In this document: in pieces, positions 36,470 through 42,677 of the stretch
Layout: each line of letters starts with the position of its first letter
Numbering within the stretch: the first letter of the stretch is position 1
NCBI RefSeq assembly: GCF_029960785.1
Contig: NZ_JASBQE010000004.1
Coordinates: 186,001 to 250,000 of the forward strand
Source of the DNA: Polyangium sp. 15x6
GTDB lineage: Bacteria > Myxococcota_A > Polyangia > Polyangiales > Polyangiaceae
Length of the DNA stretch: 64,000 nucleotides
Direction of reading: 5' to 3'
Notes under the pieces: generated by a model
Databases searched by the model: none
Told to the model about the DNA's origin: nothing
What the model saw: only the letters and a program-made list of their open reading frames with translations
Position numbers and translations under genes: made by a program

Positions 36470-37015
36470 ATGAAGCGTTCGCCTTTCTGGATCGCGGTCT
36501 TCGGGCTCTCGGCTCTCGCGTTCGTCACGTCCGCGCGCGCGGACGTGGTCGGGCCGCCGCCGGACGACTGCCCCGAGGGCACCGAGGGCGCGACCTGCCA
36601 CGGCGGGCCCTACTGCAGCCCCATCGAGTGCACCTCCGACGCCGAATGCGGCAACGGCGAGACGTGCAAGGCTCAGCCGCTTTGTGTCTCCACGATCGGC
36701 TGCGCCGGCCTCCTGCCGCCCGACGCCAGCCCGATGGACTTCGAGCGTACGAAGATCGAAGCCCTCTGCCCGAACGGCAACGAGTGCACGCAGGGCGCGA
36801 CCTGCAAGACGCAGAAGGTTTGCGTTCCCGCCGCGTCCTCCTCGGGCTCCTTGTCGTCCGCCGATGGCAGCGGATGCGGGTGTCGACTCGCGCCGTCCGG
36901 ATCGTTCGAAGCCTCGCTCGGCGCGCTCGCGCTCGGGCTCGGGGCCGCGGCCTTTGCGCGCCGCCGTCAGCGCGTGGATGCCGCGTCCCGCGCTTCCCGG
37001 CAGCGCCGCGCGTAA
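36470..37015 (+). CDS. Secreted Cys-rich protein with MYXO-CTERM-like anchor
   Basis: Encodes 181 aa from ATG 36470 with GGAGG upstream. Signal peptide 1-25 (ending A-R-A), a cysteine-rich core (about 14 Cys, including E-C-T-S-D-A-E-C-G-N-G-E-T-C), a Ser-rich linker, and a C-terminal G-C-G-C ... hydrophobic helix ... R-R-R-Q-R tail. That Cys/helix/Arg pattern is typical of MYXO-CTERM sorting signals processed at the myxobacterial surface. The core resembles the Dickkopf/EGF-like Cys patterns common in myxobacterial surface proteins. Its last 49 bp overlap the 3' end of the convergent lipoprotein gene. Confidence 0.82.
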   Translation: MKRSPFWIAVFGLSALAFVTSARADVVGPPPDDCPEGTEGATCHGGPYCSPIECTSDAECGNGETCKAQPLCVSTIGCAGLLPPDASPMDFERTKIEALCPNGNECTQGATCKTQKVCVPAASSSGSLSSADGSGCGCRLAPSGSFEASLGALALGLGAAAFARRRQRVDAASRASRQRRA

Positions 37016-37761: not shown

Positions 37762-38673
37762 ATGAACGGAAATCTGAAGAAGCTCGTTCACCACACCGAA
37801 GAGGCAGTCAGCTTCGGGCTTTCGACCGTCTGCAAGCGGCTCGGCGCCGGCGTGCTGATGCGCGTCAAGGCGCAAGACGTCTTCCGAACGGAAGGCAACG
37901 GACTCTCGGACGATCTCCTGCAATTCGTCGCACGTGCCACGTTCGACTACGTCGCGGTCGATACGGAGCGCACGCCGCTCTTCGTCGTCCAGTTCGACGG
38001 CACCTCGCACCCGACCGACGTGGCGAGCGTCAAGCAGCAGCAGGAGAACGAGATCTGCCGCAAGCTGCTCCTGCCGCTCGTGCGGGTGCACGCCTTCCAC
38101 CTCTCGAAGAAGCACCACAGCGTAGAGCTCATGACGCTCATGCTGGAGAGCTGGTTCGCCTCGAAGGGCATGCCGAACGGCGGGGAGAAGTCACGCACGT
38201 TCCGCAGCGGCGAGATCGATCTCTTCGGCACCGCGGGCCCCGGCTCGACGGCGAGCCTCTCCGCCAGCGCCGTCACTTCGTCGGGGGAGTTCGATCCCAC
38301 CGCGGGCGCGCTCGGCGACGTGCGCAGGAACATCCGCCGCATCTACGAGTCGGGCAAATGCAAGAGCCCCGTCGCTTCGTCCGTGATCGGCGTCGACGCG
38401 GCCGGCAACTTCCACGCCGTCGGGTTCGTCCGCGTGACGGACGAGGCCGTGGCGAGCTCGAAGATCGCCGTGCGCAACCAGCTCTTCCCCGCGACGACGA
38501 ACACGCTCGTCGACGAGATGCTCCTCTACGAGCTGTATCAAGAGCTCCTCGAATGCATCCGCGGCCGCGGCCGTCTCGTCTCGCGCGCCGAGCTCGGCGC
38601 CACGATCGCGGCCTTCCGCATGCGTTACAAGGTCAAGGCCGTCCCGCCGAGCATGCCGCCCGGCTCTTTCTGA
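37762..38673 (+). CDS. DUF2726-like (putative nuclease-fold) protein
   Basis: Encodes 303 aa from ATG 37762. Residues ~40-120 follow the DUF2726 pattern: D-Y-V-A-V-D (Asp62/Asp67), F-V-V-Q-F-D-G-T-S-H (Asp79, His83), then a Lys/Gln/Glu-rich helix and L-P-L-V-R-V-H. This is the restriction-endonuclease-like fold layout, although the canonical E-x-K is not obvious, so catalysis is doubtful. The C-terminal half (~185-300) is a separate helical domain. No signal peptide. It stands alone, with divergent and unrelated neighbours. Confidence 0.75.
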   Translation: MNGNLKKLVHHTEEAVSFGLSTVCKRLGAGVLMRVKAQDVFRTEGNGLSDDLLQFVARATFDYVAVDTERTPLFVVQFDGTSHPTDVASVKQQQENEICRKLLLPLVRVHAFHLSKKHHSVELMTLMLESWFASKGMPNGGEKSRTFRSGEIDLFGTAGPGSTASLSASAVTSSGEFDPTAGALGDVRRNIRRIYESGKCKSPVASSVIGVDAAGNFHAVGFVRVTDEAVASSKIAVRNQLFPATTNTLVDEMLLYELYQELLECIRGRGRLVSRAELGATIAAFRMRYKVKAVPPSMPPGSF

Positions 38674-38772
38674 GCCCGCCTGCATTCTCGTCCGGCTGGG
38701 TTTTTCCCGTCGCAACGGCTTCCTTCCCGCCGCAAGCGTGACTCGGGTACCCTCGGCGTGTCCGAGGTGGCC

Positions 38773-39552
38773 ATGCATTTCCGATCTCCTGCCCTATTTG
38801 CCTTCGCCGCGGTTCTCCTCGCGGGTTCGAGCGCGTTCGCGCACGCCGTGCTGATGAATCCGCCACCCCTCACGAACGACGACAACGCGAAGAGCGGCCC
38901 TTGCGGCTGTTATTTCGGCGCGAGTCCCGAGGATCCCGCCGAAGACGGCTCCGCCGCGGCGTGCCCGGCCTCCGGCTACAAGGTCACCGACCTCATGGTG
39001 GGGCAGCCCGTCCAGGTCACGTGGAAGGAGACGGTCAATCACAACGGCAAGTTCCGCGTGGCGATCTCGACGAAGTCGATCGACACGGTCAAGCGCGCGG
39101 ATCTCGACGCCGCCGTGTTTTACGAGGCGAACGACGCGAACTCGCAGTCGGGCGGGCTCGTGAGCACGACCATCACCGTGCCCGATACGCCTTGCGAGAA
39201 CTGCGTGATCCAGCTTCGCCAGTACATGGAGGGCGCTTCGAAGCCCTACTACTACTCGTGCGCCGCCGTGAACATCGTCGACCCGAACGCGAGCGGCAGC
39301 ACGTCGAGCTCGACCGTGTCGTCGTCGTCGTCGTCGAGCTCGTCGGGCGCGGGCGGCGCGGGCGGCGAAGGCGGCGGCGGGATGGGCGGCTCGATCCCGG
39401 ACGACGTCGGCCCTGGCCCCGCGCCGTTCCAGGAGAGCCCGACGTCCGGGGCTTGCAGCGCTTCGCCTGCGGCGTCCGGATCACCCGCCGCGCTCGCGCT
39501 CGTCCTCGCCGGCCTCGTGGCCCGCGTGGCGCGCAAGAAGGCGCGGCGGTGA
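38773..39552 (+). CDS. LPMO-like (SCE4755-type) secreted protein with Gly-rich tail and C-terminal anchor
   Basis: Encodes 259 aa. ATG 38773 has GAGG five bases upstream and is preferred over the GTG at 38758. The signal peptide ends S-S-A-F-A, so cleavage would leave His24 as the N-terminal residue (H-A-V-L-M-N-P), as required for the histidine brace of lytic polysaccharide monooxygenases. His90 in W-K-E-T-V-N-H-N-G-K-F-R is the likely second copper ligand. Six or more cysteines could form disulfides. A Ser/Gly-rich linker (~180-215) leads to a C-terminal A-C-S-A-S ... hydrophobic helix ... K-K-A-R-R tail resembling MYXO-CTERM anchoring. Predicted copper enzyme or binding protein acting on polysaccharide at the cell surface; substrate unknown. 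Confidence 0.8.
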   Translation: MHFRSPALFAFAAVLLAGSSAFAHAVLMNPPPLTNDDNAKSGPCGCYFGASPEDPAEDGSAAACPASGYKVTDLMVGQPVQVTWKETVNHNGKFRVAISTKSIDTVKRADLDAAVFYEANDANSQSGGLVSTTITVPDTPCENCVIQLRQYMEGASKPYYYSCAAVNIVDPNASGSTSSSTVSSSSSSSSSGAGGAGGEGGGGMGGSIPDDVGPGPAPFQESPTSGACSASPAASGSPAALALVLAGLVARVARKKARR

Positions 39553-40952: not shown

Positions 40953-42677
40953 ATGGCGAGAACACCGCTGCTCCGTTCCTTGTCCCGCCTCCTCCAGATC
41001 AGCCGGGCCGCGCGCCAGACCGGCATCCCTGCCGACGAGCTCCTCGCGATGCAGCGCGAGCGCGCGACCTTGCCGCGCCGTCGCTTCCTCGAGATGAGCG
41101 CCGCGGCGCTCACCTTGCCGATCGCGGCGAGCGCGTGTGGCGGCGACCCCGCGAACCCACCGACCGAGGGTGAACCCACGATCGCGATCGTGGGCGGCGG
41201 CATCGCGGGCCTGCACTGCGCGTATCGACTGAAAAAGCTCGGCGTCTCCGCGACCGTGTACGAGGCCTCGAAGCGCATCGGCGGCCGCATGTACACCGAT
41301 CGGATGACGTTCCCCGACGGCCAGCACTGCGAGCTCGGCGGCGAGCTCATCGACACCGGCCACCAGACGATGCACGACCTCGCGGCCGAGCTCGGCATCG
41401 ACCTGCTCGATTACAAGAACGACGATCAGAGCCTCGAGCATCTCGTCGCCCACATCGGGGGCGCGAAGCTCACGGAGGCGGAGATCCTGATGGGATTCGA
41501 GCCCATCGCGACGAAGATCGACGAGGCCCTCGCGACGCTCACGGATCAGGAGGACCTCTTCGTTTATTACAACAAACCGAACGGCGGCGAGGCGCTCGAC
41601 AAGCTCTCGCTCTCGGCGTGGCTCGATCAGATCGGCGCGAGCGGGCCGGTGCGGACGCTCCTCGAGGTCGCGTACAACATCGAGTACGGCCTCGAGCCCG
41701 ACGTGACGAACGTGCTCAACATGATGTTCCTGATCTCGACGGACACCTCGTCCTTCCAGGTCTTCGGCGACAGCGACGAGCTCTTTCACACGAAGGACGG
41801 CAACGACACGTTCCCCACGCGCCTCGCCGAGGATCTCGACCCCGCGCAGATCGAGCTCGACGCGACGCTCGTCTCGCTCAAGGAGGCGGCGGACGGGCGG
41901 TACGTGCTCACGTTCTCGCGTGAGGCCGGCACGTTCGAGGTCACGGCGGATCACGTGGTGCTCGCGCTCCCGTTCACGAAGCTCCGCGAGGTCTCGATCG
42001 AGGTCGCGTTGCCCGACGTGAAGAAGCGCGCCATCGACGAGCTCGGGTACGGCACGAACGCGAAGCTCATGGTGGGTTTTTCCTCGAAGCCGTGGCGCGA
42101 CGCGGGGTCGAATGGCGAGACGTTCTCGGATCTGCCGTATCAATCGACGTGGGAGACGAGCCGCCTGCAGCCGGGCGCGAGCGGCATCCTGACGAACTTC
42201 ACGGGCGGCGACCGAGGCGTGGCGATCGGCATGGGCACCCCCGAGGAGCGCGCGGCCGAGTTCCTGGATCAATTCGAGCAGGTTTTCCCCGGAACGAAAG
42301 CGACCCACAACGACAAGGTCGTACGATTCCACTGGCCGACGCACCCGTTCACGAAGGGGAGCTATTCGGCCTACAAGGTCGGGCAATACACGACGATCAC
42401 CGGGTCGGAGTCGGAGCGGGTCAAGAACCTCCATTTCGCCGGGGAACACACGAGCCTCGACGCGCAAGGGTACATGGAGGGCGGCGCGCTCTCGGGCGCG
42501 ATCGTCGCCGACGAGATCGCGGCGGATCTGGGTATCTCGACGCAAATGCTCTCGCGCGGCCAGGCTGACGAGGAGCGACCGCGATCTCTGTGGCTGCCGG
42601 GCGACCGGATCCTCGCGCGCGCGCGGGCGGCGCGAATGCATCGACGCTGGAAGGCGGCCCCGCGGCGGGCCCGCTGA
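40953..42677 (+). CDS. Tat-exported flavin monoamine oxidase-like lipoprotein
   Basis: Encodes 574 aa from ATG 40953 with AGGGG upstream. Residues 1-40 form a charged helical extension before a twin-arginine signal (R-R-R-F-L-E-M, 42-48) whose hydrophobic core ends in A-S-A-C (Cys62), so export by Tat and lipidation are likely. FAD-binding Rossmann motif I-A-I-V-G-G-G-I-A-G (77-86) followed by Y-E-A-S-K-R-I-G-G-R, and the C-terminal F-A-G-E-H-T-S motif of flavin amine oxidases. The substrate (amine, amino acid or phytoene-like) cannot be deduced. The last ~35 residues are basic and may be dispensable. Confidence 0.86.
   Translation: MARTPLLRSLSRLLQISRAARQTGIPADELLAMQRERATLPRRRFLEMSAAALTLPIAASACGGDPANPPTEGEPTIAIVGGGIAGLHCAYRLKKLGVSATVYEASKRIGGRMYTDRMTFPDGQHCELGGELIDTGHQTMHDLAAELGIDLLDYKNDDQSLEHLVAHIGGAKLTEAEILMGFEPIATKIDEALATLTDQEDLFVYYNKPNGGEALDKLSLSAWLDQIGASGPVRTLLEVAYNIEYGLEPDVTNVLNMMFLISTDTSSFQVFGDSDELFHTKDGNDTFPTRLAEDLDPAQIELDATLVSLKEAADGRYVLTFSREAGTFEVTADHVVLALPFTKLREVSIEVALPDVKKRAIDELGYGTNAKLMVGFSSKPWRDAGSNGETFSDLPYQSTWETSRLQPGASGILTNFTGGDRGVAIGMGTPEERAAEFLDQFEQVFPGTKATHNDKVVRFHWPTHPFTKGSYSAYKVGQYTTITGSESERVKNLHFAGEHTSLDAQGYMEGGALSGAIVADEIAADLGISTQMLSRGQADEERPRSLWLPGDRILARARAARMHRRWKAAPRRAR

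Follow-up and report, generated by a model that had tools for sequence, protein, structure and literature searches.

The 259-aa protein encoded on the plus strand at 38773..39552 of the window (the whole stretch of 64,000 nucleotides that was analysed) belongs to NF043005, the NCBIfam "SCE4755 family polysaccharide monooxygenase-like protein". With a probability of about 0.6 it is, as judged from its sequence, a lipid-anchored, LPMO-like copper protein that is probably oxidative. Its family membership, the conservation of the residues of the presumed copper site, the type of its C-terminal tail and the presence of a myxosortase gene in the genome were established here.

Gene, family and neighbourhood

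The open reading frame was intact, with an ATG start and 259 codons before the stop; an alternative GTG start at 38758 would add five residues. The protein matched positions 2-145 of the 146 positions of NF043005 with 143.2 bits, the cut-off being 75. Residues 1-23 (38773..38841, +) read as a Sec-type signal peptide that ends in A-F-A and conforms to the -3/-1 rule. They are followed by the mature domain with its putative histidine brace (residues 24-170; 38842..39282, +), a Ser/Gly-rich linker (residues about 171-225; 39283..39447, +) and a tail that resembles a MYXO-CTERM sorting signal (residues 226-259; 39448..39549, +). The linker and the C-terminal hydrophobic helix, both of which had been described in the sequence-only reading of this DNA, were readily recognized.

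Conservation was studied in 83 member ORFs from the retrieved loci, of which L004 and L031 are apparently one record counted twice and L084 is apparently a broken copy. These ORFs had been selected with the family model or for their similarity to the 259-aa protein and are not a random sample; the agreement of all 82 scanned ORFs with NF043005 is therefore not independent of the way in which they were collected. The family was found in 67 of 377 Myxococcota genomes (64 above the cut-off), including 59 of the 235 better assemblies, and in none of the 14 control genomes, which make up the coverage of other phyla. Relatives of the 259-aa protein were detected neither in the plasmids nor in the viral contigs that were searched. 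The named relatives found were Polyangium fumosum and two Polyangium strains, with a best segment that was 85-86% identical. In the tree the Polyangium copies and one relative (L062) shared a long branch with a support of 1.0. A second match in the protein's own genome (G000, 13.4 Mb), with a lipoprotein-like start and a Ser/Gly stretch, was rejected as a paralogue.

Comparison of the domain with that of four other Polyangium copies gave dN values of 0.035-0.110 and dS values of 0.178-0.646 (dN/dS about 0.12-0.22), so that the domain is under purifying selection among these copies. For the tail dN was 0.075-0.128 and dS 0.066-0.216, linker and tail being under less constraint. The low dN relative to dS in the domain, as compared with linker and tail, indicates that the gene is real and that selection is clearest on the domain. 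In the open literature searched, no paper on NF043005 or sce4755 was found, nor one that combines MYXO-CTERM with a polysaccharide monooxygenase. A search for LPMOs together with myxobacteria, Polyangium or Myxococcota, at the level of titles and the beginnings of abstracts, yielded no paper on the SCE4755 family; in PMC12093494 the phrase sought occurs solely in the title of a reference. The 259-aa protein is thus a further member of a catalogued but apparently uncharacterized family.

It is also the sole LPMO_10 match that was found in its genome, where GH18 was not found and GH19 gave one strong and two weak matches. Across the phylum PF03067 was recorded in 27 of 377 genomes, which is a lower bound because G000 was missed in that survey and yet was found by the search of its own genome. 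Full-length LPMO_10 matches (profile positions 1-183) were seen in another Myxococcota family, f28, five genomes of which had them within open frames of 928-1092 codons (L116-L120); a sixth f28 genome, G253, matched positions 1-86 only.

The genes around the family member were clustered over 82 retrieved stretches with a crude selection of ORFs, in which some frames on the wrong strand were chosen. Among the clusters listed, shared gene order was mainly synteny at the genus level; the two largest covered 58 stretches, a cluster attributed largely to the family gene, and 17 stretches, with a representative that looks of low complexity. Around 45 of the stretches 78 neighbours, in most cases the closest flanking gene on either side, were selected by hand and scanned with Pfam; among the 25 of 100 Pfam families listed none was present in more than three neighbours, and neither a recurrent CAZyme nor a copper-handling family occurred. 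Directly upstream of the 259-aa gene, on the same strand, lies a gene for a DUF2726 protein (37762-38673, +), which adjoins the family gene in all six stretches examined from the same genus (L003, L004, L005, L041, L109 and L110, L004 and L110 apparently being one record). Two genes downstream a flavin amine oxidase is encoded (40980-42677, +; PF01593, 210 bits) with a twin-arginine-like R-R-R-F-L near its start. This enzyme could in principle be a source of H2O2 for the 259-aa protein. In genus g23 the gene next to the LPMO-like one, with the opposite orientation, encodes a protein of 179-191 aa with a CxxCH heme-type motif in seven of the eight stretches given (L086-L089, L093, L099 and L100); this protein is a possible candidate for an electron donor.

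The predicted copper site

It had been proposed that signal cleavage after A-F-A exposes a histidine and that a second histidine completes a copper-binding brace. Residue 24 is indeed a histidine (38842..38844, +), which would become the N terminus at the predicted cleavage site; it was present in all 83 family ORFs, and the -3/-1 rule of signal peptidase was satisfied upstream of this residue in 81 of them. His90 (39040..39042, +), the predicted second copper ligand, lies within W-K-E-T-V-N-H-N-G and was retained in 82 ORFs, the exception being the apparently broken copy L084. Such retention of His24 and His90 does not look like chance. Cys44 of a K-x-x-P-C-G motif (38902..38904, +) was likewise found in all 83 ORFs. 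Lys40, Glu86, Cys141, Cys144, Tyr160 and Cys163 were each kept in 82. Glu86 (39028..39030, +), four residues before the second histidine, was replaced by Asp in the remaining ORF; Cys141 and Cys144 form a C-x-x-C motif (39193..39204, +), and Tyr160 (39250..39252, +) precedes Cys163 (39259..39261, +) by three residues. This tyrosine, which the earlier reading did not name, is of the type found in the axial position of LPMOs, and when its column was defined by the position before the cysteine it was present in 82 of 82 members (L084 left out). The 259-aa protein is accordingly predicted to possess the mature N-terminal histidine, the brace histidine and the axial tyrosine of LPMOs.

A profile of 16 diverse members was compared with the PDB. 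The best match was the insect AA15 LPMO TdAA15A (2.3e-8), followed by AA13 (2.9e-5), a GH61/AA9 protein (2.7e-4) and weaker chains of the LPMO type, among them the bacterial cellulose-binding protein 4oy7 (0.017), which we take to be an AA10 protein. TdAA15A was again on top with the profile of 82 members (3.7e-9), the two weakest matches of which were unrelated proteins. The single sequence retrieved mainly antibody chains through its linker, and one LPMO chain with an E-value of 0.83. When residues were counted along the alignment of the 16-member profile, the His90 column fell on residue 91 of TdAA15A and the Tyr160 column on residue 184. In the available part of PMC5823890 the copper site of TdAA15A is described as a brace of His1 and His91 with Tyr184 as the axial residue. 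The coincidence of the second histidine with residue 91 and of the tyrosine with residue 184 indicates that the two histidines were correctly chosen and that a third residue of the site agrees, and together with the conservation in the family it supports the predicted N-terminal histidine brace.

The assignment to LPMOs was less straightforward at the level of the whole domain. Pfam LPMO_10 was matched with 44.8 bits (cut-off 23), but over profile positions 77-182 of 183 only, so that a full-length match was not obtained. BIM1-like_dom was matched with 29.5 bits, marginally above the cut-off of 27, from profile position 2 and residue 23 of the protein onward, and this match takes in the N-terminal histidine. 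At E<=0.01 LPMO_10 was matched by 65 of 82 members and BIM1-like_dom by 49, with a best value of 1.8e-11; in the diverse subset 12 of 16 members matched the latter at E<=10. The protein might thus be a bacterial counterpart of fungal X325/BIM1, that is, a lipid-anchored protein that uses its histidine brace for the acquisition or buffering of copper without oxidizing polysaccharide. BIM1 is likewise membrane-bound, through a GPI anchor (excerpt of PMC10952591), and is reported not to cleave cellulose (excerpt of PMC7924993). The distance between the two histidines, 66 residues in the 259-aa protein and 47-67 (median 53) in 82 members, is short, which counts for this possibility, and the near-invariant Glu86 could be an extra copper ligand. 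However, the X325/BIM1 site has an Asp ligand where LPMOs keep an open position, and an axial Tyr is frequent in LPMOs (as far as the consulted portion of PMC7529816 goes), whereas the 83 ORFs contained no near-invariant Asp column and the tyrosine was present in 82 of 82 members. Moreover, LPMO chains were among the PDB matches, whereas neither the name X325 nor the code 6IBJ appeared among the nine matches of the 16-member profile and the eight of the 82-member profile at E<=10, in a library that may lack X325. That no copper-handling family occurred among the 25 of 100 Pfam families listed for the neighbours also counts against this possibility. The conserved tyrosine, the absence of a near-invariant Asp and the absence of an X325 chain from the PDB matches together favour an LPMO-like protein, and a BIM1-like role is considered rather unlikely, though it deserves to be taken seriously.

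Against the assignment to LPMOs stand the short spacing of the histidines, the marginal BIM1 match and the variation at the position five before the last Cys, which was Asp in 39 and Glu in one of the 82 members and Pro in the Polyangium copies. The spacing and the variable position, as well as the surface-type tails and the lack of a recurrent CAZyme neighbour among the families listed, would also suit a protein that functions at the surface in adhesion or in the binding of matrix, with fold and copper site kept and catalysis weak or absent. Yet His24, His90 and Tyr160 were retained down to about 31% identity, which is unexpected for an idle metal site, and we regard such a role as improbable. 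Structure prediction was of low confidence: AlphaFold, run on the domain with three Polyangium relatives, gave a mean pLDDT of 50.3 and a model with seven strands. With this low-confidence model as query, Foldseek returned no match at E<=0.001, unrelated beta proteins ranked on top and no LPMO was present among the 50 rows listed.

The C-terminal tail and probable surface anchoring

The tail scored 18.9 bits with the MYXO-CTERM model TIGR03901, just below its cut-off of 20. It was further examined with a rule of our own, which demands a Cys followed by a hydrophobic stretch and then at least three basic residues. The 259-aa protein, in which Cys228 is followed by a hydrophobic helix and then by an Arg/Lys end, conformed to this rule; in all, 75 of the 83 members did so, compared with 38 of 4150 shuffled tails. 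Of the eight failures L028 and L067 reach contig ends, L084 is the apparently broken copy, and L009, L010 and L038 miss the rule narrowly when judged by eye; L080 is without a tail, and the C-terminal end of L026 looks like a dockerin type I domain in place of MYXO-CTERM. At E<=1 TIGR03901 was matched by 45 of 82 members. The genome itself gave at least 58 MYXO-CTERM matches among the 150 of 311 candidates scored, and one of its 11 CPBP matches, ten of which were scanned, scored above the threshold of the myxosortase MrtC model (294.9 bits, cut-off 195). The 259-aa protein hence combines a Cys-helix-basic tail with a myxosortase gene in the same genome. In Myxococcus xanthus the MYXO-CTERM of TraA is cut by myxosortase, on which the attachment of TraA to the cell surface depends; that the Cys carries a lipid is a prediction for TraA as well (both from part of PMC11980579).

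The frequency of these tails, the set of MYXO-CTERM proteins and MrtC indicate that a surface tag is nearly family-wide and that its mechanism is of a known type. Retention at the cell surface, as proposed earlier, is in this way supported at the level of sequence. A periplasmic protein, the C-terminal helix of which would be irrelevant or no more than a common membrane anchor, is very improbable, since the score below the curated cut-off, which would speak for it, is outweighed by the recurrence of the tail in the family and by the MYXO-CTERM matches and myxosortase of the genome. Anchoring had also been called unusual for polysaccharide monooxygenases. This holds only in relation to secreted LPMOs, because within the family the tag is the rule and because one fungal LPMO has been shown to be retained at the cell surface (according to the part of PMC10166503 at hand).

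Upstream in the window a small, Cys-rich, exported-looking protein is encoded (36470-37015, +), the end of which, with GCGC, a hydrophobic stretch and RRRQR, resembles MYXO-CTERM by eye. It gave no Pfam match at E<=0.001 and was absent from the 58 genome matches listed for the candidates scored.

Proposed function and comparison with known systems

Oxidation of polysaccharide by the 259-aa protein is a reasonable prediction. The protein would be exported by the Sec pathway, whereupon signal cleavage would expose His24. The amino group and side chain of His24, together with His90, would hold one copper ion, with Tyr160 in the axial position as in LPMOs. Cys228 would probably receive a lipid and myxosortase would cut off the helix, so that the domain would stay tethered on the outside of the cell via the flexible linker. 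Most likely it would there attack polysaccharide that touches the cell oxidatively, using a reductant supplied externally together with O2 or H2O2; candidate targets are polymers of prey, plants or fungi, or the cell's own matrix. More tentatively, the SCE4755 family may be a separate LPMO family, a candidate for a new AA family in CAZy, that is lipid-tethered by myxosortase and, rather than being secreted, serves many Myxococcota through oxidative cleavage of polysaccharide as a contact weapon at the surface or as a tool for matrix remodelling.

If polysaccharide is oxidized, a surface-tethered LPMO-like family is scattered over a large phylum that is noted for its predatory habit and its social biofilms, which would tie copper and redox chemistry to the remodelling of matrix or to predation by contact. 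If copper is bound without further chemistry, the family would parallel fungal BIM1 in bacteria. The biochemical interest lies in the SCE4755 family more than in the 259-aa protein alone.

In relation to its own family, the 259-aa protein has all the conserved residues of NF043005, but an insertion at about residues 48-69 sets 8 of the 83 rows, those of the Polyangium clade plus one relative, apart from typical members, and the protein is 31% identical to one typical member and is set on a long stem in the tree. With AA10 (LPMO_10) it shares a match of the second half of the domain above the cut-off, whereas the first 76 profile positions are unmatched. X325/BIM1 is similar in its marginal whole-domain match and in membrane anchoring, but the SCE4755 family differs from it by the conserved axial Tyr, by the lack of a near-invariant Asp and by PDB matches without X325. 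MYXO-CTERM proteins such as TraA have the same tail architecture, with a myxosortase in the genome, although the tail of the 259-aa protein scores slightly under the cut-off. The AA15 LPMO TdAA15A (PDB 5MSZ) is the closest solved relative by profile, with the second His, the axial Tyr and the C-x-N-C...Y-x-x-C-A-D pattern aligned. It differs in its His-to-His spacing of 90, which is shorter in the SCE4755 family, and in its absence from the PDB matches of the single 259-aa protein, which is bacterial and carries a surface-anchor tail.
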